Source: a virus
Length of the DNA stretch: 21,476 nt
Reading direction: 5' to 3' (one strand)
IMG/VR virus record: IMGVR_UViG_3300010354_010489
Location: 1 to 21,476 of that record
How positions within the stretch are numbered: the first letter of the stretch is position 1; the number at the start of each line of letters is the position of its first letter. Below, piece after piece: positions 2,672-17,851 of the stretch. Both the position numbers and the translations under genes were made by a program. Below the pieces are notes generated by a model. That model was not told where the DNA came from, searched no databases, and saw nothing but the letters and a program-made list of their open reading frames with translations.

Positions 2672-2982
2672 TGTCAGTCAGTTACTACCGCAAAAAGCTC
2701 TCCGATAAGGACTACTACCTGTCCCAGGCCAGGCGCCCCCTGCCCAAGAACAAGTACAGCCCTTACCGAGGCGTGTCCAAGGGCACTGCCACCCACCCGT
2801 ATCGGGTGTGCGTCTCCTACAAGGGGCAGCGCCACATGGTGGGCCTGTTCGAGGACGAGCTAGAGGCCGCCAAGGCGTACAACGAGGCCGCCCTGCGAAT
2901 CATCGGTGACTACGCGCTGGTGAATGACATCCCCAACCAGTCGAGCAGCCTCTCCTCCCTCGACGCCTCCCAGAAGTCCTGA
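2671..2982 (+). CDS. stand-alone AP2 DNA-binding domain protein
   Basis: The 103-residue product is essentially one AP2/ERF-type DNA-binding domain (about residues 29-86), with the YRGV signature (SPYRGVSKG), central [17 protein letters not shown] and helix [17 protein letters not shown], preceded by a basic N-terminus. In phages and cyanobacteria this domain is usually fused to an HNH homing nuclease; here it has no nuclease of its own. The ATG overlaps the terL stop (TAATG at 2669-2673), and the 3' end overlaps by 73 bp an HNH gene on the other strand. It may be the remnant of a homing nuclease, or a DNA-binding regulator co-expressed with the terminase. Confidence 0.85.
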
Positions 2983-3236
2983 GCCCTGAACCAGGACATC
3001 CATTCAGCCGAGCCCTTGGCCCGGTTGCACCCCGCGCACGCTGCTACGAGGTTGTGCTGCACCGAGGAACCTCCTCGACGCTTTGCTTTGACGTGGTCCA
3101 GGGTTCCTGCCGGACTCCCGCAGTACGCGCAGGCGCATCCCCAGGAATCCAAGATCCCTTGGCGAAAGCGCAGCTTCGCGCACCGTTTGGAGCAGAGGTA
3201 GGAGCCATCAATGTGATGGTCCAGCATCGCTGCCAT
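2910..3236 (-). CDS. HNH endonuclease
   Basis: A 108-residue minus-strand protein with a zinc-binding HNH fold: CAYC (Cys36, Cys39), TLDHV (Asp47-His48, catalytic), QHNL (Asn62) and CAGCN (Cys67, Cys70, Asn71); an extra Cys pair lies at 15 and 19. HNH nucleases are often encoded beside terL and can help the terminase cut cos ends, but those are normally co-oriented. This gene runs against the late operon and overlaps the AP2 gene tail to tail, which fits a mobile homing endonuclease equally well. ATG start; no clear ribosome-binding site. Confidence 0.85.
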
Positions 3237-3437: not shown

Positions 3438-5249
3438 GTGAATCAATCCATATCCGACTCCACCCGCCAGGACGGTGCCCTGGTCAATGTCCTCACGGGC
3501 ATGGGCACTCCCACCAAGGACAAGAGCATCGCCACCTCGGTAGCGGGCAAGACGTTGCTCACCGAGCACGAGCTGGAAGCCCTGTACATCCACGGTGTAC
3601 CCCGTCGGTACGTCGATGCCATCTCCGACGAGATCCTGCGCCACCGCACCACCATCAAGCTCGGGGGTGAGGAGCAGGACAACGAGGTCATCAGCCAGGT
3701 CGAGGAGTACCTCAAGGGCACCCGCTTCCACCAGGCGCTCTCCGAGGTCGTCAAACTCCAGCGCCTCTACGGGGGTGCGGGCCTGGTCCTGCTGATCGAC
3801 GACGGCCTTCCCCCCGAGGAGCCGGTGAACGTCCAGCGGATCCGTGCTGTACGGGACTACATCCCCCTCTCACGGCACGAGCTGATCCCCGAGGACTTCA
3901 CGATCACGGACTACAGCAAGCCTCAGTACTACCGGATCACCACCTCCCAGAAGCTCGCCCCGGACCAGCAGGGGAGCTATGTGAACATGCGCATCCATGC
4001 GTCCCGCGTGGCGCGCTTCGACGGTCTGTACCTGCCCTGGAACGTCCGCTCCCGCAACACCGGCTGGGGCATGTCTGTCCTCCAGCTGATCTGGGAGGCG
4101 TACAAGCGCTACGAGTCCACCCTCAGCGGGTTGGAGTCGATGACCAGCGACGCGGACCTGTTCGTCCACAAGATCCCTGGTCTCTTCCAGCGCATCGCTG
4201 CTGGCAACGAGAGCGACCTGCGCAAGCGCCTGGAAGCCAACAACCTCTCCCGCAGCGTCTACGGGGGCATGGTGGTGGACGTGGAGGAAGACCTCCAGTT
4301 CCTCAACCGAGCTCTCAGCAACATCGCCACGGCGACCGAGCCCTTCGTCAAGGATCTCCAGGCAGCCACCGGCTGGCCCGCCTCGATCCTGATGGGGGAC
4401 TCCCCCGGTGGCCTGGGCAAGGAAGGCCGCTTCGAGGAGCGCGTCTGGGCCTCCCTGGTGGAGCAGTGGCAGGAGCTCTACTGCCGGGGACCGATCACCG
4501 AGGTCTTCGAGTACGTGCTCCTGTCACGAGAAGGCCCCACCCGAGGCAAGCCCCCCGAAAGCTGGAGCGTCCACTTCCCGAGTGTCTTCACCGAGACCGA
4601 TGAGGAACGTGCCGCCCTGCGTCTGCAGATGGCTCAGGTGGACGCCCAGTACGTCAACCTCGGTGTCCTCAACGCCCTGGAGGTGCGCGAGAGCCGCTTC
4701 GGTGGAACGGAATACAGCATCGAGACGAACCTGGATGAGGCTGTCACCCAGCAGATGGTCACCCAGGCCGACGCCCAGTTCCAGACCCAGATGATGTCGA
4801 TGGAGGCCCAGGCCCAGGCGATGCTGAACCCACCGGAGGCTCAGCCCCCCGAGAACGGTGGAGATCCGGCTGCCCAGCCCGATCAACAGGCCAAGACCGA
4901 CGTCTTCGACCACTACGACGCCCAGGGCCTGCGCATCCGGGTCACCCACACCCATGGGGACGTGCGGGTGGGCTATCTGGTCGGTCCTGACGGACAGCGC
5001 ACCGATTCCAGCGCAAACGCCCCGCTGATGGTGTTCGGTCCCCATCGGACACGGGCACACAAGCTGTACCGAGCTCGGTTTGACGCAGGTGAGGAGCTGA
5101 TCGCAGGTCCGTATGTCACCGGCTTCGCATCGATGCGTGCAGCCAAAAGAAGTCTGGTCGCTCTCTTCCCTAGACAGAATGTGGCAGGGCTCATCCCTGT
5201 CCCCGAGGGCGAGCTGGAATCACTCCGTGCCGGTTGGGAGCAGTACTGA
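3438..5249 (+). CDS. portal protein (DUF1073 family) with C-terminal extension
   Basis: This 603-residue protein forms the ring through which DNA enters and leaves the head. Residues about 40-440 match the DUF1073 portal type: an N-terminal alpha/beta part with YGGAGLVLLIDD (111-122), then WGMSVLQLIWEAYKRYE (210-226) and the family signature ASILMGDSPGGLGKEG (315-330), then a helical region rich in Gln and Met (438-462). A Pro/Gly-rich linker (464-486) joins an extra domain of about 115 residues (488-603), absent from a minimal portal and not confidently identified; its tail (GFASMRAAKRSLVALFP) faintly recalls pyrophosphatase-like domains of other phage head proteins. Start is GTG; the stop overlaps the next ATG by one base. 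Confidence 0.88.
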   Translation: MNQSISDSTRQDGALVNVLTGMGTPTKDKSIATSVAGKTLLTEHELEALYIHGVPRRYVDAISDEILRHRTTIKLGGEEQDNEVISQVEEYLKGTRFHQALSEVVKLQRLYGGAGLVLLIDDGLPPEEPVNVQRIRAVRDYIPLSRHELIPEDFTITDYSKPQYYRITTSQKLAPDQQGSYVNMRIHASRVARFDGLYLPWNVRSRNTGWGMSVLQLIWEAYKRYESTLSGLESMTSDADLFVHKIPGLFQRIAAGNESDLRKRLEANNLSRSVYGGMVVDVEEDLQFLNRALSNIATATEPFVKDLQAATGWPASILMGDSPGGLGKEGRFEERVWASLVEQWQELYCRGPITEVFEYVLLSREGPTRGKPPESWSVHFPSVFTETDEERAALRLQMAQVDAQYVNLGVLNALEVRESRFGGTEYSIETNLDEAVTQQMVTQADAQFQTQMMSMEAQAQAMLNPPEAQPPENGGDPAAQPDQQAKTDVFDHYDAQGLRIRVTHTHGDVRVGYLVGPDGQRTDSSANAPLMVFGPHRTRAHKLYRARFDAGEELIAGPYVTGFASMRAAKRSLVALFPRQNVAGLIPVPEGELESLRAGWEQY

Positions 5250-8074
5250 TGAGCACCGAACGCAACCTCACACCCGAAGGCTTCCGCACAGCTGCGTACC
5301 TGGAAGCCCGAGCACGGATGGATGCAGGTAAGACCCGCAGAAACGTGCAATGCACACCGCCCAATAAGCGGTGCGGAAATAGATGTATACCTCCTAATTG
5401 GGACTGTCGGTTGAAAGGCGAGGGACCAGACCCTCATCTACGCGCTGTGAAGACAGATCCACTTGGGGGTCTTGCCAATATCCAAAGGGGTACAGGTCGT
5501 ATCATCCGTGGTATCGCCAAGGGAAGTTTTTCTGATGTAGAAGGAGGAAAGAGATCGGTTATTCGAGGAGCCGTCAAGATTGCACCAGGGGACTTAAATC
5601 AAAAGAAAGAACTACAGAAAAAGCTAGAAGACCGTACACGCAGTATTGGCATCGGCCTTGCTGTCATCACAGGTGGGCTGGGTATTCATGCCCTACTAAT
5701 GAAGACGGATACGTTTGGGTACAGGGATGGTTTAGGTGCGGATATTAACCATGCGACGCGTATGGGCGTCAACAAGATTTTGGACGCTACTCCAATTATC
5801 GGTGCCAACCGCGCTCGCACCCGAGCTCGTGTGGCATCAGGTCTGGCATCACAACTGGAAAGACAACACAATCCGGTGTCGGCTGCTTTAACAAATCAGC
5901 TGGCACGGACCCCTGTACATACAGGCGAGACGGAAAGCCGGACATTACTCGTCACCAGACTCCAGAAAGTTGACGAAGCCCATAGTGGTGCGTCTGCTGA
6001 CTTCTATGCGTGGGACAAAGCACATCAGAAAACGTTCTGGTCAACAACCAAAAAGGAGACTGGTGTTGGCCTGGATAAGGAGGAACGCGCTAGCGTTTTC
6101 GCCCGCCCAGCAACGGAGGAATTTCTAGCACGTCAATTCAAGCTTCAAGGAGACGATGTCCTCACAACAAAATCAATAAAAGATGCAATCGAGCGTCAGA
6201 TGGATAGCCATAAGTCTGATTTGCTTGATCTAGCGCGTCAACAGGGTTTCGCTGTAAAAAATGTCATTGGAGGCGGGCGCGTTATCGAGGCAAAGCAGCA
6301 GCGTGCCTTCATTCAGGGGCTGGTCAAGAAGACCCTGCCTCCTGGAACCGCTTCGGAAACCGTACGCAGTCAGCTCACTAAGCACATTGAAGATACGTTG
6401 AAATACAGCTCGAAAACACGCACTGACAATCTGTACAGAGATACATTCAAGGGATTTAATGACTTCTACACCAGTCAGGCATCTATAACAAATAGAGCGC
6501 TAAATTCCCCCAAGATGACCCCCGAGCTACGTAGAGCGGGGGCTGAGCAGACCATTTTGGATGGAAGGCAGGCTCGTGCTCAGTACGTTATTGGACGTAC
6601 GCAACCAGGAAAGCAGATCAAGGGAAGCGCGCACGCAGAAGTAGCTCTACGGGATTACCACGCCCGTGTCGTCCGTAAGACCCCGCGCAACATGTTCACG
6701 ATTACAGATCGTCTGGCGATAGCCGCTGCCTCCGAGATCGAAGGACGAACTGTCAACAAGAAGGAAGCATTCCAAATCCTGGAGCGTGAAGGCTTTACAG
6801 GCATCGTCTCATCCAACCCGCCCTCTCGAACCCGAGAACGGCCTCAAACTGAAGGAGAGGCTGTTTATGAACTCATGCGTCAGAACCCCGGAATGGGCCT
6901 GGCGGCAGCTCGTCGTGAAATTAAGCGACGTCGCAAGGACTCTGATGACCTTCCATTAGAGGTAGTCCGTGCATCCACTTATCTTGTAGTACGCCAGGAT
7001 CTCCGAAATGGTAAACACCTGGGAAAGCCCTGCGGTGAGAGCCACATCCCTAAGACTCACGAGTGTACAAAAGGAGTAGGCACTTCTAATACATCAGATG
7101 AACGAAAGAAAAAAGCAGCGATAGCCGCAGCAGTTATTGGTGGCGCGGCCTTAGTTGCCATCGCTGGCGCCACTGCATATGACGTTAAGAACCTACAAGA
7201 TCCTAGTAAGTCTCCAATGCCTCCAAGTCCAAGCATCAAAGACTTGGCAAAACAGATGAAAAAAGAAGCGGGCACAAAAAGTGCCAGCGAGGCAATGGGA
7301 CACTACTACACTAAAAAGTCTGGTCTCAAGCCGGGTGACGTCGTGTATTTCCGCCACGAGAAAGACCCAGCCGCGCACTTTGGCATCTACCTAGGTGAAG
7401 GCAAGGACGGTGTTGTAAGAGCGGTAATCGCTAATACAAAAGACTCCCGCTTTAGCTGGGCTGATGTGAGCGAGATCGGTTCTACAAAGCCAGGTGGAAA
7501 GGCGGCACAGGCGCTGATGACTCCACTGATGAAGGCTCCTACTCCTCAATTTGCTGATAAAGCTACGAAGTATACAAATGAAGAGGTTGTCAGGCGCGCC
7601 ATTCGGATCGCTGGTACGGACTACAAGTTTTCACTTACACGGGACAACTGTGAGGCGCTAGCCAATGGCATCGCTTACGGCGTCCCCGAGTCCGAGCAGC
7701 TGAAACGATTCAAGGTCGCCACCAGAGCCGCTGTAGATGTCAGTATTGGCAGGAACCAAAGGCGCGAAGGTAAGCGGGCTATTTACGAGGGTCGTGCTCA
7801 AGGAAGAAACTACACAGCAAAAGAGTTTGTCTCCTTCCTTGAAGGTCAGCGCGAGTTCAGTTCTTACGCAGGTAAAGAGCTAGCTCAACAGTACGCGCAT
7901 TACTTCAAAGATTCCCGTGTCGACCAAGAGGAGGGTATGTCGTTCGGCCTAGTCACTCCAGAAGCATTGTGGGAGAAAGTTAAGTCATACAGTGCTCCTA
8001 TAAAAGCGCGCGCGATGGCTGACTATCTCCTCATTCAGCGGTCCCTTGCAGAATTAGCGAATGGACCTGATTGA
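5249..8074 (+). CDS. large virion-associated protein with Cys motifs and LRAT/NlpC-like domain
   Basis: ATG 5249 overlaps the portal stop and gives 941 residues; a TTG at 5234 is less likely. Visible parts: an N-terminal Cys cluster (Cys35, 42, 46, 53, containing CGNRCIPPNWDC); a hydrophobic stretch at about 131-151; a long charged helical middle; a second Cys motif CGESHIPKTHEC (595-606); a membrane-like Ala/Gly/Val segment at about 622-644; then a domain resembling circularly permuted NlpC/P60 (LRAT-like) enzymes, with GDVVYFRH (696-703), AHFGIYLGEG (His710) and DNCEALANGIAYG (Cys801). His before Cys is the LRAT order. Such enzymes cleave or transfer acyl groups or peptides. Position between portal and Mu F-like protein suggests an internal or ejected head protein, perhaps acting on the cell envelope. 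Base use is more A/T-rich than in neighbouring genes. Confidence 0.75.
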   Translation: MSTERNLTPEGFRTAAYLEARARMDAGKTRRNVQCTPPNKRCGNRCIPPNWDCRLKGEGPDPHLRAVKTDPLGGLANIQRGTGRIIRGIAKGSFSDVEGGKRSVIRGAVKIAPGDLNQKKELQKKLEDRTRSIGIGLAVITGGLGIHALLMKTDTFGYRDGLGADINHATRMGVNKILDATPIIGANRARTRARVASGLASQLERQHNPVSAALTNQLARTPVHTGETESRTLLVTRLQKVDEAHSGASADFYAWDKAHQKTFWSTTKKETGVGLDKEERASVFARPATEEFLARQFKLQGDDVLTTKSIKDAIERQMDSHKSDLLDLARQQGFAVKNVIGGGRVIEAKQQRAFIQGLVKKTLPPGTASETVRSQLTKHIEDTLKYSSKTRTDNLYRDTFKGFNDFYTSQASITNRALNSPKMTPELRRAGAEQTILDGRQARAQYVIGRTQPGKQIKGSAHAEVALRDYHARVVRKTPRNMFTITDRLAIAAASEIEGRTVNKKEAFQILEREGFTGIVSSNPPSRTRERPQTEGEAVYELMRQNPGMGLAAARREIKRRRKDSDDLPLEVVRASTYLVVRQDLRNGKHLGKPCGESHIPKTHECTKGVGTSNTSDERKKKAAIAAAVIGGAALVAIAGATAYDVKNLQDPSKSPMPPSPSIKDLAKQMKKEAGTKSASEAMGHYYTKKSGLKPGDVVYFRHEKDPAAHFGIYLGEGKDGVVRAVIANTKDSRFSWADVSEIGSTKPGGKAAQALMTPLMKAPTPQFADKATKYTNEEVVRRAIRIAGTDYKFSLTRDNCEALANGIAYGVPESEQLKRFKVATRAAVDVSIGRNQRREGKRAIYEGRAQGRNYTAKEFVSFLEGQREFSSYAGKELAQQYAHYFKDSRVDQEEGMSFGLVTPEALWEKVKSYSAPIKARAMADYLLIQRSLAELANGPD

Positions 8075-8936
8075 GCAGTACAACCAGCGTCTCCGCTCCA
8101 CCGAGGACGACATCATCACCATGCTCAACCGTGTCCTTGATGCCAGCTTAAACCGGCTGGTACGACGGGCGCGGGTCCACATGAAAGCCGGCTACGCGGA
8201 TCCCGCTCAGCGCAACCTCGCCCTACTGCAGGAGTTCCGCCAGCTGGTGCCGGTCTTCAACCCAGATAAGGTCGACGCCTACGACAGGCTCCTGAGGAAC
8301 CTCCATGGCAGCGCCTCCCGTTACGGCATCACCGTGGCATCTGAACTCAGCGGGAACGTCCTGCCGGATACCCCCCGCGTAGATGTCTCGATCCCCCTGG
8401 ACGCCACCATCGCAGCGGCGAGTCAAGCCAAGGGCTACCTCCGCAAGCACGGCAACACGTTCGCAGAGACGTCCGCAGTCACGGTCGCCCAGGGCATCGC
8501 CGAAGGAAGGCCCACAAACGCCGTGGTCGAAGACCTCCGAGCCCGTCTCGGTATCGTCAAGTCCAGATCAGAGGCGATCGTACGCACCGAAGCGCTCAGG
8601 GCATATAACGACGCATCCAACACGTACTACGCGGCGCAAGGGATCGATCAGGTGGTGTATTACGCCACAAGTGATGATCGAACCTGCGTTTACTGCGCTC
8701 CGAGAGCGGGAAAGATCTACAACCGAAGCAAAGTTCGCACCCCACTGCACGTTCGTTGTCGCTGCTACCTCGCTCCCTGGAATAGCGATCTGGCTTCCAT
8801 CGACCCCGACTACGCCGAGATGCCAGCCCGTCACCGCAAGGAAGTCATGAAAGCGTTCGCCTCTACCGGCCAGGAGCCAGTCTCCCTGAACAAGCCGGCA
8901 GCTTTCGAGCAGATTGCTCCGACCCCGCGTAACTGA
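8061..8936 (+). CDS. minor head protein, Mu F / SPP1 gp7-like
   Basis: The 291-residue protein has the Mu F-like head morphogenesis domain in its second half: IVRTEALRAYNDASNTYY (173-190), the Cys pair in DDRTCVYCAPRAGKIY (Cys209, Cys212) and the closing PLHVRCRCYLAPW (Cys233, Cys235). The N-terminal half is helical and would face the portal. In relatives this protein binds the portal, is carried in the head and takes part in early assembly or DNA entry. It overlaps the preceding 941-residue gene by 14 bp in another frame, consistent with a portal/minor head protein set. An 86-bp gap without a clear signal follows. Confidence 0.88.
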   Translation: MDLIEQYNQRLRSTEDDIITMLNRVLDASLNRLVRRARVHMKAGYADPAQRNLALLQEFRQLVPVFNPDKVDAYDRLLRNLHGSASRYGITVASELSGNVLPDTPRVDVSIPLDATIAAASQAKGYLRKHGNTFAETSAVTVAQGIAEGRPTNAVVEDLRARLGIVKSRSEAIVRTEALRAYNDASNTYYAAQGIDQVVYYATSDDRTCVYCAPRAGKIYNRSKVRTPLHVRCRCYLAPWNSDLASIDPDYAEMPARHRKEVMKAFASTGQEPVSLNKPAAFEQIAPTPRN

Positions 8937-9022
8937 TTCCCGATACGGATAGGTTTTAACGCGATTAGCACACGGCCATAAAATGGGCGTAACCAGGCTC
9001 GGGCGGACGTGCCCTTACTGCT

Positions 9023-10018
9023 ATGCCCGTACCCACCAAGAAGCGTCCACCCCTGGAAATGGAGCCGGGTGAAGGCAAAGCCCACGAGATGAGCGAGAGC
9101 TCTTCCGAGGAAGTACGCGAAGGCTCCGAGGCCGATGAGAAGCAGTCTTCCCACTCCCGCAAGCGCAGCGCCAAAGGCTCCAAGAACACCAAAGCCCCCA
9201 TGGACGCCGAGGGCGGTTGCTGCAACGAGAAGAAGGGCAAGGGCAAATGCCCGACTTGCGCAGCTGGTGGTGCTTGCCGTGGTGATGCAGCCCTCACCCC
9301 TCACGAATACCTGGCCGCCTGCGAGCTCGGTATCCAGGACCGCAGCCGTACCTACATCCGAGCCCGCCTTGACACTGCTATGAACCTCACTCCTTCCTCC
9401 ATCCGCTCCGACCTGAAGTGCGGAAAGGGCTCCATCAGCCAGGGCGAGAAGTGCCACGTCGGTGCAGCTCAGAAGGTTGACCCGAAAGCTGCAGCTAAGA
9501 AAGAGTTCAAGACTCTGATGAGCGACCCTATGGCCGCAAATCGTTTCAACAGAACCAAAGCCTCTACCAAAGGTATTAACAACAAGATCAAAGCTACAGG
9601 CGAGTTTGCCGCTCGCCTCGGTGGTGGCGCAGCTATCGGAGCTGGTCTAATGCAGACAATGGAAGGCGCAGCACGCGGCAACCTCGGTGAAATAAGCCGT
9701 GGCTACCGCAACATGACCCTCGGTGCCGCTGCCACTCAGGTAGCCAATGCGAGTAAGGCCGGTCGCATGGGCAAATCCGAGCTCTCCAAGGAGTTCCTCA
9801 AGAGCGCTGCCCGTAATGCTGCCATTGGTGTCGGACAAGAGGCCGCTATCGGTGCTTACGCTGGGTTCAAGCGCGCTGGTGGTGTAGCCGGAGCTACTCG
9901 CGGTGCTCGTCGCACTTATCAAGCAGCCCGTATGCGTGCTGCTGGAATGCGCACGATGAAACGCGACTCGATCTATGCCAGCGGGTTCTCCCCCGAGCTC
10001 GATCAACTCGCTATCTGA
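9023..10018 (+). CDS. Cys-rich virion-region protein with C-G-x3-I-x5-C motif
   Basis: No known family is recognised for this 331-residue protein. Residues 1-60 are low-complexity (Lys, Glu, Ser). A Cys cluster follows (Cys66, 67, 76, 79, 85, including CPTC), possibly a metal site. Next come LTPHEYLAACELGIQ (91-105), YIRARLDTAMNLTPSSIRSD (111-130) and CGKGSISQGEKC (133-144), the motif also found in the flanking genes. The rest is Gly/Ala-rich with weakly hydrophobic helices (195-245) and a basic tail. It lies between the Mu F-like gene and another motif protein, with no convincing ribosome-binding site before ATG 9023. A structural or internal head protein is inferred from context only. Confidence 0.7.
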   Translation: MPVPTKKRPPLEMEPGEGKAHEMSESSSEEVREGSEADEKQSSHSRKRSAKGSKNTKAPMDAEGGCCNEKKGKGKCPTCAAGGACRGDAALTPHEYLAACELGIQDRSRTYIRARLDTAMNLTPSSIRSDLKCGKGSISQGEKCHVGAAQKVDPKAAAKKEFKTLMSDPMAANRFNRTKASTKGINNKIKATGEFAARLGGGAAIGAGLMQTMEGAARGNLGEISRGYRNMTLGAAATQVANASKAGRMGKSELSKEFLKSAARNAAIGVGQEAAIGAYAGFKRAGGVAGATRGARRTYQAARMRAAGMRTMKRDSIYASGFSPELDQLAI

Positions 10019-10021
10019 GCC

Positions 10022-10750
10022 ATGACTCTCACCCCCGCTGCGCTGCGCTCAGATGCCCCCGGCCGAGCCTGCGGCCAGAGCCACATCGCCCAAGGAAAGA
10101 CCTGTCATAAAAAAGGGTCTTTCCCTGCAACTAAAGTTCTCGCCGCTACTGCAGGAGCTGCCGCTGTCGGGATCACTGCATACGCTTTGACTCGCCGAGG
10201 TACTAGAAAACCACAAAAGAAAACACCCACAAGTCAGCCTCTTTTACCTGCAGCTAAGGAACCCCCGAGTCCGCCTCGTTTACCTGGCATCACGCCGAAA
10301 GCACTGCTTCCTCCCGCCCCTCCGCGCAAGTCCAAGACTCAGCGCATGCGTGAGAACACCGCAGCGGCTGTGAAGCACGCCGAGGCGCGCATCACTCAGA
10401 CCGCCCGCGAGGAAACCCGGCGTATCGCCCAGGTGGCCAACACCATGGGAGCTGCCGGTGAAGCAACCGGGATGACCATCAAGACCGGTCTCCGTGAACT
10501 CCGTCTCCGTACCGAGGCCGCTCGCCGTCGCTTCGAACCGGGTTACCGCAAGCCTGATCAGAAACGCCTGCCAGGTGGCATCCAAGCACAGCTCCCTACA
10601 AGCGATCCAACCCCCGAGCGCGTTCCCATTCCCATCGATCCGCGCACCGGTCAACCTCGGCGCCGTAAGGCTCGTGGCTTCGGTCGCACAGACAATTACA
10701 TCCAGCACTACGCCACGACATACATCGACCCCGCTCGCAAAATGGGCTAG
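10022..10750 (+). CDS. basic membrane-segment protein with the same Cys motif
   Basis: The 242-residue protein begins MTLTPAALRSDAPGRACGQS, reaches CGQSHIAQGKTC (17-28), and is followed by one hydrophobic segment at about 38-57 (VLAATAGAAAVGITAYAL). After that it is very basic and Pro-rich, with an Arg/Glu helical stretch at about 110-175 and a PRTGQPRRRKARGFGR patch near the C-terminus. Its start echoes the region around residue 121 of the previous protein (NLTPSSIRSD then the Cys motif), so the two probably share a duplicated module. Only 3 bp separate the genes. The basic tail could bind DNA; the function is unknown. Confidence 0.7.
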   Translation: MTLTPAALRSDAPGRACGQSHIAQGKTCHKKGSFPATKVLAATAGAAAVGITAYALTRRGTRKPQKKTPTSQPLLPAAKEPPSPPRLPGITPKALLPPAPPRKSKTQRMRENTAAAVKHAEARITQTAREETRRIAQVANTMGAAGEATGMTIKTGLRELRLRTEAARRRFEPGYRKPDQKRLPGGIQAQLPTSDPTPERVPIPIDPRTGQPRRRKARGFGRTDNYIQHYATTYIDPARKMG

Positions 10751-10764
10751 CGACTCGCTTTTCC

Positions 10765-10944
10765 ATGCCTGAACTCGATGTGAAGCTCCCTCACATACCT
10801 GCTCACGCCCGAGTGCGGATCTGGTTCTGGAACAACGCGGGCGCCCAGACTCACATCTGCCGAGCCATCGATGCCTCCGCAACCCGTCGCGCCCTGATAT
10901 CCATGGGGGCGACGGTCTTCCATACCGAGTACCTCTTCGACTAG
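10765..10944 (+). CDS. small hypothetical protein, 59 residues
   Basis: ATG 10765 opens a 59-codon frame ending in TAG at 10942-10944. The product starts MPELDVKLPHIPAHARVRIW and ends in VFHTEYLFD; it has a plausible globular composition with one Cys, no membrane segment, and no recognised family. It follows the 242-residue gene by 14 bp in the same direction, filling what would otherwise be a gap, with codon use like its neighbours. Its TAG stop shares the palindrome CTAG with the TAG stop of the XRE gene on the opposite strand. Confidence 0.55.
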   Translation: MPELDVKLPHIPAHARVRIWFWNNAGAQTHICRAIDASATRRALISMGATVFHTEYLFD

Positions 10945-11159
10945 ATCCCGGCCAGCAGGATGTCCAGGGGCATCGCGTAGAGCTCACTCAAAACCATCAG
11001 CTTTGAGAAGGAAATCTCAATTTCCCCCTTCTCAAGGCGACTGTACGCAGCTTGGCTCACACAAAGTTTCTCTGCAACCTCACTTTGTGTGAGTCCCATG
11101 CTCTCTCGTAAGCTCCGAATACGCCGACACAGCGTCAGCTGCCTGTGAATCGCCACCAA
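10941..11159 (-). CDS. XRE/Cro-CI family transcriptional regulator
   Basis: This 72-residue minus-strand protein is nearly all one Cro/CI-type helix-turn-helix: RIRSLRESMGLTQ, then the recognition region SEVAEKLCVSQAAYSRLEKGE, then the closing helix ISFSKLMVLSELY. No dimerisation or protease domain is attached, so it resembles a small Cro-like repressor or an addiction-type antitoxin rather than a CI repressor. The longest frame starts at TTG (11159) with GTG directly after; the exact start is uncertain. It lies downstream of an HNH-AP2 nuclease on the same strand and may be co-transcribed with it. A perfect 12-bp inverted repeat lies within its own HTH codons. Confidence 0.88.
   Translation of the reverse strand: MVAIHRQLTLCRRIRSLRESMGLTQSEVAEKLCVSQAAYSRLEKGEIEISFSKLMVLSELYAMPLDILLAGI
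11056..11093. repeat. 12-bp perfect inverted repeat inside the XRE gene
   Basis: CTCACACAAAGT (11056-11067) and ACTTTGTGTGAG (11082-11093) are exact reverse complements with a 14-nt spacer. They fall in the codons for LTQSEVAEKLCVSQ of the regulator's helix-turn-helix. A similar CACA/AAAGTG arm pair lies in the intergenic region near 11761-11814. It may be an operator or an mRNA hairpin; coincidence from Thr-Gln-Ser and Cys-Val-Ser-Gln codons is possible. Confidence 0.55.
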
Positions 11160-11200: not shown

Positions 11201-11689
11201 TTAAGGCACTCCTCCCGCAGCTATGTAGGCGGCGTGCGCCTCCTCTGCGGTCTCGAAGTGCCCTAGATAGGTACGTTGTCCGTTTTTATTGATGGATGAT
11301 CTGAAATACTGCCTAGACCCTTTTGTATAGCGATGCACACCCTTGAGTCCTGTGCTATTGCTCCGTAACATTCCCCTGTTAGCCATCTGTTCACAGGGAT
11401 CGGCAAGTCTAAGGTTGCAGAATCTGTTGTCATGCCTAATCCTATTGATATGATCTATTTGAAAACTACCAGGATCATCGCCTGTGACCCATTTCCAAAT
11501 TAGTCGATGGCCTGACCATAACTTTCCCGGACCACCAAAACGTACTTGCAGGTAGCCGGTATTTTTACTTATAGATCCGGCCAGCACTAAACCTTTAACT
11601 GTCCGCCGCATCAACAACCCTGTATCAGGGTCGTAATCAAATTCGTTCCTAAGCGCCTCTAAAGGCGGCAGGGCCTTAAAGTTCCTCAT
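11201..11689 (-). CDS. HNH homing-type endonuclease with AP2 domain
   Basis: The 162-residue protein has an HNH_3-like nuclease core, with SGHRLIWKW (His61), QIDHINRIRHDNRFCNLR (Asp79-His80, Asn88, Asn92) and ANR (103-105), followed by an AP2 DNA-binding domain at about 112-157 (GLKGVHRYTKGSRQYF, then YLGHFETAEEAHAAYIAA). This pairing is typical of phage-borne homing endonucleases, which cut an allele lacking their gene and spread into it. It ends soon after AAYIAAGG, a little earlier than many relatives that continue through the last AP2 strand, so the C-terminus may be trimmed. It runs opposite to the late genes, with the XRE gene downstream. Confidence 0.9.
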   Translation of the reverse strand: MRNFKALPPLEALRNEFDYDPDTGLLMRRTVKGLVLAGSISKNTGYLQVRFGGPGKLWSGHRLIWKWVTGDDPGSFQIDHINRIRHDNRFCNLRLADPCEQMANRGMLRSNSTGLKGVHRYTKGSRQYFRSSINKNGQRTYLGHFETAEEAHAAYIAAGGVP

Positions 11690-11963: not shown

Positions 11964-13256
11964 ATGGGACCATCAAGTTCTGCACATCGGTTCGACTTCG
12001 CCCCTATCACCAAGGCGGAGAAGACGTCGGAGGGTTACCTCCGAGTTTGGTGCCGTGCTGCGCGCACGGGGACTCAGCTCTACCGCAGAGCTGATGGCAC
12101 CCAGGTTCGGGAGTATCGACCTCCTGAGGAAGTCGGAAAACCTGAATCACTCTCCACGTTCGGTATGAAACCGACGACGTGGGGACACCCGCCCGTTCTT
12201 CTCGATGCTGAGAACACTAAGCAGTACCAAATTGGCTACTCCGGTAGCCAGGTGCGCTTTAACGACGGGTTTGTCGAGGTTGCTCTTGTCGTGACAGACA
12301 AAGAAGCTATCGACAAGATCGAGCGAAAGGATGCTGCAGAAGTCAGTGCGGGTTATTCCGTTGACTATGACCCTACCCCCGGAATCACCCCCGAGGGCGA
12401 GGAGTACGCCGGCATCCAGCGCAACATCCGGGTCAATCACATCGCCATTGTTCCTCGGGGTCGGGCTGGCCCCGAGGTGCGCCTTCTCCTGGATCGCATG
12501 GATGCAGCAGACGCTGTTTCCTTCGACCCGGATCTGATCCCACAAGGATCGGCGCTCCAGCCCTGTTCACCTGCATCTCCCGTTATGGCAACCGTCAAAC
12601 TTGACGGCCTGGAGATCGACCTGCCTGCAGAGGCAGCTACTGCGGTCCAGTCCTATGCACGGGACATGGAGCGCCAGTTCAAAGCTGTTTCCACCGAGCG
12701 CGACAACCTGTCGGCCAAGCTCGATTCTCTGCAGTCGGACTTCGATTCTCTGAGCTACGAGAAAGAAGCCGCCGAAGGCCGTGCCGACGCTCTCGAAGAG
12801 CGCCTGGCTGAGCTCGAGGACGGTGCTCCCCGCATCGACACCGCTGAACTGGATCAGCTGGTCGCTGCTCGTCTCGCCACCCTCCAGAAGCTTGCCCCCG
12901 CCTTTGCCGAGGACTTCAAGTTCGACGGCATCGACGACGAAGCTCTGTACGCGACTGCCTTCGAGAACCTGACCGGTTCCGCACCCCGCGAAGACGCCGC
13001 CCCCGCCTACATCCAGGGCGTGGTGGACGGCATCCTGGCCGCCCGCGCCGATTCCGACGACGAGGAAGGCGACGAAGAAGGCGAGGAGGAAGCCCCCGAG
13101 GCCGAATCCAAGGAAGACGCCGCCGACCGCGCCGACAGCACTGCAACCCTGCGTGACGCCCTGCGTGGCGCTGGTCGCAGCTCCGCTTCCCCGGTCTCGG
13201 ACTACCGAGCTCGGATGGCGGATGCCTGGAAGCGTCCCCTGACCGCCACTAAGTAA
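11964..13256 (+). CDS. prohead protease-scaffold fusion (DUF2213-like)
   Basis: The 430-residue protein combines two head-assembly roles. Residues about 8-180 resemble DUF2213/prohead proteases: WGHPPVLLDAENTKQYQIG with candidate catalytic His75, EVSAGYSVDY with candidate Ser128, and RVNHIAIVPRGRAG (156-169). After a Pro/Ser linker, residues 208-287 form a coiled coil (DMERQFKAVSTERDNLSAKL onward) typical of scaffolds, followed by a helical part, a strongly acidic run (364-388) and a basic C-terminus (RMADAWKRPLTATK) that could bind the capsid protein. ATG 11964 has no clear Shine-Dalgarno sequence. An internal ATG at 12585 (Met208) would produce scaffold alone. The decoration and capsid genes follow directly. 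Confidence 0.85.
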   Translation: MGPSSSAHRFDFAPITKAEKTSEGYLRVWCRAARTGTQLYRRADGTQVREYRPPEEVGKPESLSTFGMKPTTWGHPPVLLDAENTKQYQIGYSGSQVRFNDGFVEVALVVTDKEAIDKIERKDAAEVSAGYSVDYDPTPGITPEGEEYAGIQRNIRVNHIAIVPRGRAGPEVRLLLDRMDAADAVSFDPDLIPQGSALQPCSPASPVMATVKLDGLEIDLPAEAATAVQSYARDMERQFKAVSTERDNLSAKLDSLQSDFDSLSYEKEAAEGRADALEERLAELEDGAPRIDTAELDQLVAARLATLQKLAPAFAEDFKFDGIDDEALYATAFENLTGSAPREDAAPAYIQGVVDGILAARADSDDEEGDEEGEEEAPEAESKEDAADRADSTATLRDALRGAGRSSASPVSDYRARMADAWKRPLTATK

Positions 13257-13268: not shown

Positions 13269-13880
13269 ATGGCCGTTTCTTTCACCCCGACCACCGTCAC
13301 CAGTCCCGCTGGTGCGCAGGGCAGCTATCCCCAGACCCTGGTCAAGGGTCACGAGGGCATGCTCGCCGACCTGCAGGCTTACGTGAGCCGCAGCTATCGC
13401 AACCAGAGCGGTGCTGCCATCCCGTTCGGCGTGTTCGTCTCCACCGACAACAGCCCGACCAGTAACGACCAGTACGCCGTGCAGATCGCTGCCGGCACCA
13501 CCCTGATCCAGGGCATGGCCGTTAGCACCATGACCATGGAGGGCACCAGCCTGGGCTCCTCCTACACCCCGGTTCCCACCCCTGTGTACTCGGATGGCCG
13601 CATCGGCTACCCGGACAAAGAGACCATCAACGTGGTCTCCAAGGGTGTCGTCTGGGTTCACAGCGTGGAGGCCATCGCCCTGGGCGACGCCGTGCGCTTC
13701 TACCTCGCTGACTACTCGGGCACGACTGCCGGCGCCTATCTGGGCCGTTTCGGCAAGACCGCCGTGGCAACCAAAACCGTCGCCGTCACCGGCGCCCGTT
13801 GGCTGTCTGAGACCTCGGCCGCCGGCCTGGTTCTGCTGGAGATTGACATCCCCGGCATGACCTACTCCGCCGACTCTTGA
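13269..13880 (+). CDS. head decoration / capsid cement-like protein
   Basis: The 203-residue protein is rich in Ser, Thr, Gly and Val, predicted mostly beta, without Cys or membrane segments. It lies between the protease-scaffold and the capsid gene, where decoration or cement proteins are normally encoded, and contains segments common in such proteins (SYRNQSGAAIPFGVFV near 42-57, VVWVHSVEAIALGDAVRFY near 127-145). Decoration proteins bind the outside of the expanded capsid and stabilise it. Codons are strongly C-ending, as in the capsid gene, consistent with high expression. Family assignment is by position and general character, so the exact type is open. Confidence 0.72.
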   Translation: MAVSFTPTTVTSPAGAQGSYPQTLVKGHEGMLADLQAYVSRSYRNQSGAAIPFGVFVSTDNSPTSNDQYAVQIAAGTTLIQGMAVSTMTMEGTSLGSSYTPVPTPVYSDGRIGYPDKETINVVSKGVVWVHSVEAIALGDAVRFYLADYSGTTAGAYLGRFGKTAVATKTVAVTGARWLSETSAAGLVLLEIDIPGMTYSADS

Positions 13881-13897
13881 TCACGGAGCTTCCCCCC

Positions 13898-14815
13898 ATG
13901 ACTACCGAAATCCGTAACGACGACGTCGGCATCTTTTTGGCTCGCGAGCTGGAAACGATCCTGGCTCGCACCTTTGAGGTCGAGTACGCCGACATCAAGT
14001 ACAGCTCCCTGATCCCGATCTCCTCCGAGGTCGGTGTCGGCGCTGACTCCTTCACCTACCGAGTCTTCGACAAGCAAGGCTCGATGAAGGTGATCGGCGA
14101 TCGGGCACAAGACCTGCCCCGCGCCGACGTCCTGCGCAAGGAAGTGAGCCACCCGGTTCGCTCCCTCGGTGCGAGCTTCGCTTACACCATCCAGGAAACC
14201 CGTGCCGCCGCCATGGTGCCCGGCATGAACCTGGAGCAGCGCCGGGCCAACGCCGTACGCCGCGCCTACGAAGAGAAGGTGCAGGAGATCGCCTACTTCG
14301 GCGATGCCCCCTCCGGCATGAAGGGCTTCTTCAACAACGACCAAGTCGACAAGCTTGTCCCTGACAAGTGGTTCGACACCAACGGCGTGACCACCGACGA
14401 GATGCTGGCCCTCCTCAACGAGGCCCCGACCCGTCTGGTGCAGAACTCCAACATGAAGGAGATGCCCAACACGATGCTGGTGCCCTACAACGTGTACCGC
14501 ATCATCTCCACCACCCCGAGGTCGTCCACTTCGGACACCACCGTGATGGAGTTCTTCCTGCGGACCAACCCGATGATCCAGGCCATCGAGCCGATCAACG
14601 AGCTGGAAGCAGCCAAGTCCGGCGGCACCCTGTCGAAAGACCGGATCATGGTGTACGACCGCAGCCCCGACAAGCTGCAACTGCACGTACCCCAGCCCCT
14701 GGAGTTCCTGCCTCCTCTGCGCCGCGAGCTCGAATTCACCGTTGCTGCCCACGCACGCATCGGTGGTCTTGCTCTGTACTACCCCAAGAGCGCGATGGTG
14801 CTGGAGAAGGCTTGA
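13898..14815 (+). CDS. major capsid protein (DUF2184-like, HK97 fold)
   Basis: From ATG 13898 the protein has 305 residues; an in-frame TTG at 13877 is less likely, because GGAG at 13885-13888 lies 9 nt before the ATG. The sequence matches the character of the DUF2184 capsid family: N-terminal helical arm (FLARELETILARTFEVEYAD), DSFTYRVFDKQGSMKVI, the long helix QRRANAVRRAYEEKVQEIAYFG followed by MKGFFNN, the domain with NTMLVPYNVYRIIS, and a C-terminal beta part (LEFTVAAHARIGGLALYYP). It forms the shell of the head. Position after the decoration gene and very regular codon use support a highly expressed structural gene. Confidence 0.9.
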   Translation: MTTEIRNDDVGIFLARELETILARTFEVEYADIKYSSLIPISSEVGVGADSFTYRVFDKQGSMKVIGDRAQDLPRADVLRKEVSHPVRSLGASFAYTIQETRAAAMVPGMNLEQRRANAVRRAYEEKVQEIAYFGDAPSGMKGFFNNDQVDKLVPDKWFDTNGVTTDEMLALLNEAPTRLVQNSNMKEMPNTMLVPYNVYRIISTTPRSSTSDTTVMEFFLRTNPMIQAIEPINELEAAKSGGTLSKDRIMVYDRSPDKLQLHVPQPLEFLPPLRRELEFTVAAHARIGGLALYYPKSAMVLEKA

Positions 14816-16846: not shown

Positions 16847-17851
16847 ATGGCCGACTATGCCATCGGGCTGTCCTTCCACAAGGCACACCGGACCATCGTC
16901 CGTGCCGTGGACCTGACTGCCCCCTGCCGGTACTTCGCTACCCGCGACACCGCCGGCATGATCACCCTGCCCACCCTCGATACAGGCGACAGCTACATCG
17001 AGCTGCAGGGCATCACCCAGACCAGCTTCCAGATCAACGACAACAACCAGGAGTTCCGCCTTCTGGGCGATGACGGCTGGACCGACAGCGTCATCACGGG
17101 TTCTTCCGTGCAGGCAAGCGTCACCGCTTATTTCCTGCGCAACACCGAGGTTCCCGCCGGTCAGGACTGCCCCGTCTTCAAAGGCAACTACGACGAGGGC
17201 TTCAACCTGATCCAACGAGCCCGTTACGACAAGGACTTCGAGATCTACATCGAATTCCTGAAGGAGCTGGGCCAAGCGGACGGCACCTCCGGTAACTACA
17301 TCTACGACTTCACCGGCTTCAACGCCGTGATGCAGAACTACCAGGAGCAGATGACCGCCGAGGGTCTGACCGAGATCTCCTTCGACCTCGTGTCCCGCTC
17401 CCGCCCGGTGTTCGGCCGCTACGACAGTGGTGCATCTGCCATCAGCTTCGGCGCTGTGCAGGCCAGCCTGCTGTTCCTGGTGGATGGCACCCGCCAGGCT
17501 GCAACAGTTCCTGCGAACAACGCCTCTGGTATCGCTGTGGGCAACAACCTGACGGTGACCTACACCACCGATGGCTCCACTGCCATGACCCAGCTGGCCC
17601 TGGGCCAGGCCGATGGTTCCGGCTTCCGTCTGGAAGTGGCTTCCACTGGTGCTGTGGTGCCCGCCACGGTGTCGCTGGCATCCAACGTAGTGACCATCAA
17701 CCCGAGCGCGAACCTGAGCGCTACCACCATCTATCGCCTGGTGGTCGCCGATGGCGCTATCACCCAAGCGGTGGACGCCAACGGCAACCCCAGCGGCAGC
17801 GGTGTGAAGCGTCCTGTACAAGGTCTCACCACCAGCTTCATCACTGCATAA
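16847..17851 (+). CDS. major tail protein with C-terminal Ig-like domain
   Basis: The 334-residue protein would build the tail tube. Residues 1-205 form the tube domain (beta-rich; SYIELQGITQTSFQINDNNQ near 48-67, EGLTEISFDLVSRSRPVFGR near 172-191). Residues about 212-330 resemble an SbsA/Big_5-type Ig-like domain: an entry near PANNASGIAVGNNLTVTY, the middle VVPATVSLASNVVTINPSAN and the closing ATTIYRLVVADGAI, then a final strand ending in TTSFIT. Tail-tube proteins of several siphoviruses carry such surface Ig domains, thought to help contact with cells or surfaces. A strong Shine-Dalgarno, C-ending codons and a hairpin after the stop fit a highly expressed gene. Confidence 0.86.
   Translation: MADYAIGLSFHKAHRTIVRAVDLTAPCRYFATRDTAGMITLPTLDTGDSYIELQGITQTSFQINDNNQEFRLLGDDGWTDSVITGSSVQASVTAYFLRNTEVPAGQDCPVFKGNYDEGFNLIQRARYDKDFEIYIEFLKELGQADGTSGNYIYDFTGFNAVMQNYQEQMTAEGLTEISFDLVSRSRPVFGRYDSGASAISFGAVQASLLFLVDGTRQAATVPANNASGIAVGNNLTVTYTTDGSTAMTQLALGQADGSGFRLEVASTGAVVPATVSLASNVVTINPSANLSATTIYRLVVADGAITQAVDANGNPSGSGVKRPVQGLTTSFITA

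Follow-up and report, generated by a model that had tools for sequence, protein, structure and literature searches.

A cysteine tag recurs on variable proteins encoded in the head-gene block of a viral contig and its relatives

The DNA studied here, referred to as the window, is the IMG/VR viral record IMGVR_UViG_3300010354_010489 (21,476 bp), and its subject is a short cysteine tag carried by three proteins of the head-gene region. The genes of the window follow the standard order of a head-tail region: TerS, TerL, an AP2-like protein, the portal protein (PF06381), a 941-aa protein, a MuF-like minor head protein, a 331-aa and a 242-aa protein, the DUF2213 protease, the major capsid protein (PF09950), connectors, the major tail protein and a tape measure gene running past the window end. 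An earlier note on this DNA listed four exact copies of the pattern CGxxxIxxxxxC in the 941-, 331- and 242-aa proteins. All four are present: CGNRCIPPNWDC (5372–5407), which forms part of tag copy 1, and the sequences given for copies 2 to 4 in Table 1. A scan of all six frames revealed no fifth copy in the window. The MuF gene, which has no motif, sits between the 941-aa gene and the 331- and 242-aa genes.

Composition-preserving shuffles of the three tagged proteins contained the motif once or more in 2/5000, 1/5000 and 0/5000 cases. The motif was then sought in 148 related viral loci, retrieved via the 941-aa protein and the capsid protein, which together with the window amount to 1.73 Mb. 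It occurs 408 times (260 distinct contexts), of which 407 are on the coding strand and one is on the other; because the loci belong mostly to one phage clade, these counts are not independent events. In five long relatives (66–72 kb, scanned over their full length in six frames), all 31 copies are found 3.2–13.8 kb upstream of the capsid gene on the same strand and none elsewhere, as expected if matches mostly adjoin portal, MuF and capsid genes. Single copies are just 12 residues long, so that a resemblance of unrelated head proteins by chance or through low complexity could be suspected. The 407:1 strand bias, the shuffle frequencies of at most 1 in 2500 and the retention of both cysteines in 462 of 463 copies found by a cysteine-masked profile (built from copies with both cysteines, with masking taking away the cysteine weight) all speak against it; the strand and location controls refute this explanation, and we regard its probability as negligible. 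The copies are thus too alike for chance, far above background, as had been claimed, and their recurrence across relatives strongly supports a small module shared by co-located head-region proteins. Pfam, PHROGs and NCBIfam give this module no match, in agreement with the earlier remark that no named family was known for it.

The tag exists in several forms. Type A (C-x-PPN-xx-CGxRCIPPNWDC) is located near the N-terminus of the large protein and has four cysteines; in copy 1 of the window the two further cysteines, at -7 and +4, were absent from the earlier description. Type B (GKPCGxSHIPKxHxC) has two frequent histidines. Type C (R-x-D-LK-CGKG[AS]ISxGEKC; CGKGAISEGEKC) has two cysteines only and no conserved histidine. 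A small four-cysteine variant in another gene, CGNACIPKDHKC, bridges types A and B. Of 22 long relatives, all have a match to the type B profile and 21 to the type C profile. The extra cysteine pair at -7/+4 is either complete (76 of 402 distinct copies) or missing (326 copies), and a single extra cysteine never occurs. Such a pattern is what two independent disulfides (0–11 and -7–4) would leave and, since the extra cysteines are present or absent together, it favours disulfides over zinc binding. The tag had been suggested to be perhaps a disulfide or metal clasp, and only the first of these options gains from the pairing. A small zinc clasp could use the type B histidines (CGxSHIPKxHxC) for C2H2 ligation, and the four-cysteine form could be a C4 site; nevertheless, the strict pairing of the cysteines argues against a metal site, and so does type C, which offers two ligands only, so that we consider metal binding quite improbable. 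A hydrophobic Ala/Gly-rich stretch follows type B tags and, less often, type C tags: the post-tag Kyte-Doolittle mean exceeds 1.6 in 59% and 23% of copies, respectively, compared to 13% and 6% at random positions of the same proteins.

The tag is preceded by a second conserved element, R-x-D. The 30 residues before type B and type C tags contain 51.6 R-x-D per 1000 residues versus 4.3 in shuffles, with no excess of the control patterns R.E, K.D, D.R, RD and R..D. It is found within 40 aa before the tag in 418 of 422 copies, and the aspartate is at position -3 in 122 of 122 type C copies. The LTP segments reported for the tagged proteins are present (residues 7–9 of the 941-aa, 122–124 and 91–93 of the 331-aa and 3–5 of the 242-aa protein). 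A stretch Y-[LI]-x-A-R-x3-D, said to be common to the 941- and 331-aa proteins, fits YLEARARMD in the former and does not fit YIRARLDTA in the latter; what they have in common is Y-[LI]-x-A-R and R-x-D, and we therefore replaced the longer stretch by R-x-D as the shared element.

R-x-D also occurs in other proteins of the head region. By family, the ratio of observed to expected R-x-D is 3.1 in the DUF2213 protease, 2.5–2.6 in the 331- and 242-aa families and 1.8 in the capsid and portal proteins, and it drops to 0.05–0.3 in TerL and most connector families. In the five long contigs the ratio, calculated with crude open reading frame (ORF) calls, is about 1.8–2.0 in the capsid and upstream genes and 0.7–0.9 elsewhere. 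An N-terminal R-x-D is found in every capsid homologue listed (MTTEIRND and variants), and the portal protein has its R-x-D-[GA] position in common with the phages S-CBS4 (GGIRADG) and CL131 (SDIRYDA). S-CBS4, an isolated Synechococcus phage whose capsid, portal and protease are 55%, 40% and 38% identical to those of the window, has R-x-D at the matching positions of the capsid (MSEFRMD), the portal and the protease; its gp23, 25, 26, 28–30 and 32 contain none. This distribution, with R-x-D at capsid and portal N-termini, in the protease and in the tagged proteins and its scarcity in most other late proteins, is the pattern of a prohead-protease substrate, and suggests that the DUF2213 protease cuts after R-x-D.

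Many tagged genes begin with M-x-LTP-xx-[LIV]-R-x-D, for which 35 distinct versions were found, and LTP occurs 176 times in the tagged proteins versus 23 expected. At the other end, 123 of 322 distinct tagged ORFs have R-x-D-S-[VI]-[YW]-A-x-G-F followed by exactly 2 or 9 residues to the stop. If R-x-D is cut, both terminal peptides would be lost and the cysteine clasp would be left near the new N-terminus. Removable ends that are distinct from a retained clasp would fit targeting signals. The suggestion that the cysteine module might be a targeting signal is thus more likely to apply to the LTP...RxD and C-terminal DSxYAxGF peptides on either side, while the mature protein would keep the clasp. 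Small untagged ORFs (L111, L221, L222 and others) have EDPSTNRARNGHGxxPRLKRDS[IV]WAEGFAP at or near their end and no cysteine tag, and the C-terminal signal may therefore be used more widely than the cysteine-tagged genes.

Alternatively, the tag itself could be a capsid-targeting signal that binds the scaffold or the capsid interior, with the LTP, R-x-D and C-terminal peptides as spacers or secondary elements. No other element is as constant as the tag on these otherwise unrelated proteins, the tag is restricted to the head-gene block, and targeting sequences of such a kind are known in T4 IPIII and P1 DarB (PMC9024508). However, strict cysteine retention and pairwise extra cysteines would be superfluous for a short docking peptide, and after cleavage at R-x-D it is the N- and C-terminal peptides that would go, as removable targeting signals do, while the tag would stay. 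We find this alternative rather unlikely.

Judged from sequence, the motif is a tag common to otherwise different proteins, whose variable parts we term cargo. The segments that follow type B and type C tags fall into 35 greedy clusters, a figure that depends on thresholds, since with single linkage almost all cargo merged into a single family. Family matches include LRAT, kinases of the APH, ABC1, RIO and Kdo types, ADPrib_exo_Tox, DnaJ and DUF5872, with a weak ATLF match (0.003) in a protein with HELGH; in PHROGs, a match was obtained to phrog_832, the T4 Alt-like RNA polymerase ADP-ribosylase. Further labels were assigned by eye and are unconfirmed: two more HExxH groups and, from short signatures, a GxSxG hydrolase-like cargo and an acetyltransferase-like group with ...IYRRYGF..., an assignment of the ...YRRYGF... 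cargo that Pfam does not support. Several tagged cargo proteins (L120:1999-3291, L136:568-1998 and others) share a recurrent C-terminal region with cysteines of its own, which in L120 consists of a DUF5872 match and then KKYSKKVRDPKTGRTRTVRYGAKGYKIAPGTDKGDRYCARSFGDMKS... The cargo set and order vary from phage to phage even among relatives with a capsid 82–94% identical to that of the window. For instance, the place of an LRAT domain is taken by a different LRAT type, by a hydrolase-like protein or by the YRRYGF group, and a kinase, an ADP-ribosyltransferase or a 242-like protein fills the last cargo slot, depending on the phage. One ORF in the relatives can have up to three tagged units with different domains.

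In the window, the 941-aa protein has one recognised domain, LRAT, and a conserved helical N-terminal region of about 600 aa, for which no fold match was found in PDB or BFVD. Residues 693–812 match LRAT (PF04970; 7.6e-09, 36.3 bits versus the curated cut-off of 24.3). A profile of 22 sequences of this domain finds human HRASLS2/PLAAT in PDB (E 1e-10), and in a Foldseek search with the predicted structure, all eight best matches are PLAAT/HRASLS, with a target-normalised template modelling (TM) score of 0.55–0.69. In the alignment, H126 and N216-C217-E218 are invariant in the 22 sequences. The domain is likely a thiol acyltransferase or phospholipase A, as suggested by this sequence profile, the predicted fold and the catalytic His and Asn-Cys-Glu residues; the difference from known LRAT/PLAAT (HRASLS) proteins is that here the domain is embedded in a tagged phage head-region protein. 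Neither the 331-aa nor the 242-aa protein matches a Pfam or PHROGs family above threshold. Upstream of its tag, the 331-aa protein has an extra cysteine cluster, CCNEKKGKGKCPTCAAGGAC (residues 66–85; 9218–9277), that resembles a small zinc ribbon.

The tagged proteins might also be mainly structural, an ejected channel or internal core in which clasps and helices assemble a pore and enzyme domains are secondary. The hydrophobic Ala/Gly-rich helices after many tags, the several families that are just Gly/Ala-rich or coiled and the conserved helical N-terminal region of the large protein are consistent with a conduit. On the other hand, the domains vary between close relatives, unlike what a conserved conduit would require, and several of them match enzymes, with catalytic residues conserved in the LRAT case. 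A mainly structural role seems to us unlikely.

Tag recurrence and location, the cysteine pairing pattern, the R-x-D distribution, the C-terminal tag and the domain variety, all read from sequence, lead us to infer packaging, cleavage, disulfide formation, ejection and enzymatic action of the tagged proteins. We think it probable that these genes are effector cassettes whose products are packaged in the head, trimmed by protease and ejected, and that a short tag, with the motif at its core, marks cargo for the phage head. Each tagged gene would produce a precursor or a precursor chain with an N-terminal M-x-LTP-xx-[LIV]-RxD peptide followed by the cysteine clasp. In most cases a hydrophobic helix would come next, ahead of a domain that varies and is often enzymatic, and many precursors would end in an RxD-S-[VI]-[YW]-A-x-G-F peptide plus 2 or 9 residues. 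Precursors would enter the prohead along with the scaffold and the DUF2213 protease, which would cleave after R-x-D, trimming capsid, portal and cargo and splitting tagged units encoded in one reading frame. Mature cargo would retain the clasp near its new N-terminus and would be ejected together with the DNA, and it could be helped to cross or sit in the envelope by the helix and by the clasp, which probably consists of one disulfide or, in the four-cysteine form, of two. The window cargo would include the LRAT/PLAAT-like domain and its likely thiol acyltransferase or phospholipase activity.

Several observations weigh against this reconstruction. Over its whole length the 941-aa family shows no R-x-D enrichment (1.16), that of MuF is modest (1.37), and the major tail protein (1.0) and g136 (0.7) are exceptions to the scarcity of R-x-D in late proteins. 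About 60% of tagged ORFs lack the C-terminal tag, although some are truncated by contig ends. A clear hydrophobic helix is present in no more than 59% of copies for type B and 23% for type C, and charge asymmetry around it indicates no clear topology. The AlphaFold2 model of the tag has low confidence (predicted local distance difference test, pLDDT, about 35), too poor to place the cysteines. Finally, no cysteine tag is present in the 30 kb read from S-CBS4; as this phage has the R-x-D pattern without the tag, the protease pathway does not require the tag. The portal-to-protease slot of S-CBS4 (L217, 9161–14127) holds glycosyltransferases and a methyltransferase in place of tagged cargo.

Among 2.9 million viral contigs, the core patterns identified 193 stretches for type B (136 confirmed) and 125 for type C (124 confirmed). 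The exact type B DNA pattern occurs in three stretches of 84,980 bacterial and archaeal genomes, none of which has the protein motif in an open frame of at least 50 aa, and thus the search yielded neither a prophage nor a host genome with type B tags. The three tagged proteins and the four-cysteine tag peptide had no tblastn match in 50,697 phage records. The host is likely a cyanobacterium, since the nearest isolates, S-CBS4 and CL131, are cyanobacterial phages; psbA gives no host clue, as it is absent from 14 long relatives.

The head-gene block of the window contains additional genes. An AP2-domain-like protein (2671–2982, +; weak, E 0.02), an HNH endonuclease (2910–3236, -; E 9e-09) and an AP2/HNH-like protein recognised by eye (11201–11689, -) are probably homing-type elements inserted in the block. 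A small XRE-type helix-turn-helix protein (10941–11159, -) is encoded between the last tagged gene and the protease, the same place as that of the minus-strand "transcriptional repressor" of S-CBS4 (13837–14127). The major tail protein-like gene (16847–17851, +) encodes a C-terminal bacterial Ig-like domain (Big_5, E 7e-08).

Table 1. Positions of head-region genes, tag copies and candidate processing signals in the window.
Feature	Position	Strand	Evidence or remark
Portal protein PF06381	3438–5249	+	Pfam E 3e-56; N-terminal R-x-D (RQD, 3465–3473)
941-aa tagged protein	5249–8074	+	LTP N-terminus, four-Cys tag, conserved helical region of ~500 aa, second two-Cys tag, hydrophobic helix, LRAT-like domain
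LTPEGFR...ARARMD, LTP segment with R-x-D end (RMD, 5315–5323), candidate cleavage site	5267–5323	+	R23 and D25 invariant in 27 homologues
Tag copy 1, four-Cys form, CTPPNKRCGNRCIPPNWDC	5351–5407	+	C35, C42, C46 and C53 invariant in 27 homologues
Two R-x-D sites (RKDS, RQDL) between N-terminal region of 941-aa protein and second tag	6932–7000	+	
Tag copy 2, two-Cys form, CGESHIPKTHEC	7031–7066	+	Motif match and alignments
Hydrophobic Ala-rich helix after tag copy 2	7097–7198	+	AlphaFold2 helix, residues 33–66 of segment starting at 7001
LRAT/PLAAT-like papain-fold domain	7325–7684	+	HFGIYL at residue 710, NCE at 800–802; His, Asn, Cys and Glu invariant
MuF-like minor head protein, without tag	8061–8936	+	PF04233 1.9e-10; phrog_115 5e-21
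331-aa tagged protein, Gly/Ala-rich after tag	9023–10018	+	No family match
LTPSSIRSD, LTP-RxD segment directly before tag copy 3	9386–9412	+	
Tag copy 3, CGKGSISQGEKC	9419–9454	+	
C-terminal tag of 331-aa protein, DSIYASGFSPELDQLAI	9965–10015	+	YASGF begins 14 residues before stop
242-aa tagged protein	10022–10750	+	No family match above threshold
MTLTPAALRSD, 11-residue candidate propeptide with R-x-D end	10022–10054	+	35 distinct M.LTP..[LIV]R.D variants in relatives
Tag copy 4, CGQSHIAQGKTC	10070–10105	+	
Hydrophobic segment VLAATAGAAAVGITAYAL after tag copy 4	10136–10189	+	Sequence
DUF2213 head maturation protease	11964–13256	+	PF09979 6.5e-44, phrog_530 7e-85; RADS at 13044 and 13128
Major capsid protein PF09950	13877–14815	+	N-terminal MTTEIRND (RND, 13913–13921)

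Effectors ejected by phages tend to be discovered domain by domain, and a constant tag offers a sequence handle for cargo lacking a known function: anything behind it, including the many clusters without a family match, becomes a candidate early effector. Under the tag model, R-x-D is expected to be a specific protease motif and the terminal peptides to be packaging signals; if true, the model would provide cyanophages with a modular protein-delivery signal. A bolder version, which we hold to be possible and somewhat short of probable, is a platform dedicated to delivery. Prohead loading, DUF2213 trimming and delivery through the cyanobacterial envelope would then apply to any protein framed by an LTP-RxD head, the cysteine clasp with its helix and an RxD-SxYAxGF tail, and effectors would be exchanged as cassettes.

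The closest known group is that of polyvalent proteins, multidomain proteins with kinases, ADP-ribosyltransferases and peptidases that are encoded near late genes and for which packaging and injection have been predicted (Iyer et al. 2017, PMC5512222). The tagged proteins resemble them in the disparate enzyme domains found across the set, the MuF neighbourhood and position beside late virion genes, as seen in the 31 tags of the five long relatives, all upstream of the capsid gene on its strand. They differ in that several separate genes use the same short cysteine tag, together with flanking R-x-D and signals at the C-terminus. The words "cysteine", "transmembrane", "NlpC" and "LRAT" are absent from the main text of that paper, and we found no description of a constant tag of this kind, reused across genes with such signals, in the papers searched. 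Calling the module a new system was therefore an overstatement, as head-packaged multidomain effectors were already known; it is the tag, the processing signature and the modular reuse that appear to be new.

The T4 Alt and internal proteins and the P1 Dar proteins are head-packaged effectors with terminal signals, maturation processing and delivery with the DNA, for which we propose a parallel here, and one cargo class of the relatives is, like T4 Alt, an ADP-ribosyltransferase. By contrast, the tagged proteins have other signal sequences, another protease family (DUF2213) and a clasp of two cysteines with a helix that would be retained. In SPN3US, the protease gp245 cuts after A-x-E, and eight head proteins, the portal and the ejected gp54 among them, lose their N-propeptides (PMC10052503). 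SPN3US and phiKZ share with the processing suggested here a three-residue motif with an acidic P1 residue, N-propeptides on portal, capsid and ejected proteins and self-cleavage at the protease C-terminus, whereas the proposed motif in our case is R-x-D. MuF polymorphic toxins (Jamet et al. 2017, PMC5576092) likewise have a head-gene location, and their variable C-terminal domains are delivered by phage particles, as the cargo here would be. The variable domains described here are instead on separate tagged proteins, and the window MuF (291 aa) is not a toxin fusion: it has no extra domain or tag and significantly matches only head-morphogenesis and portal families and uncharacterised PHROGs. 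In secretion systems one signal serves many effectors, as it would in the proposed exchange of cassettes.

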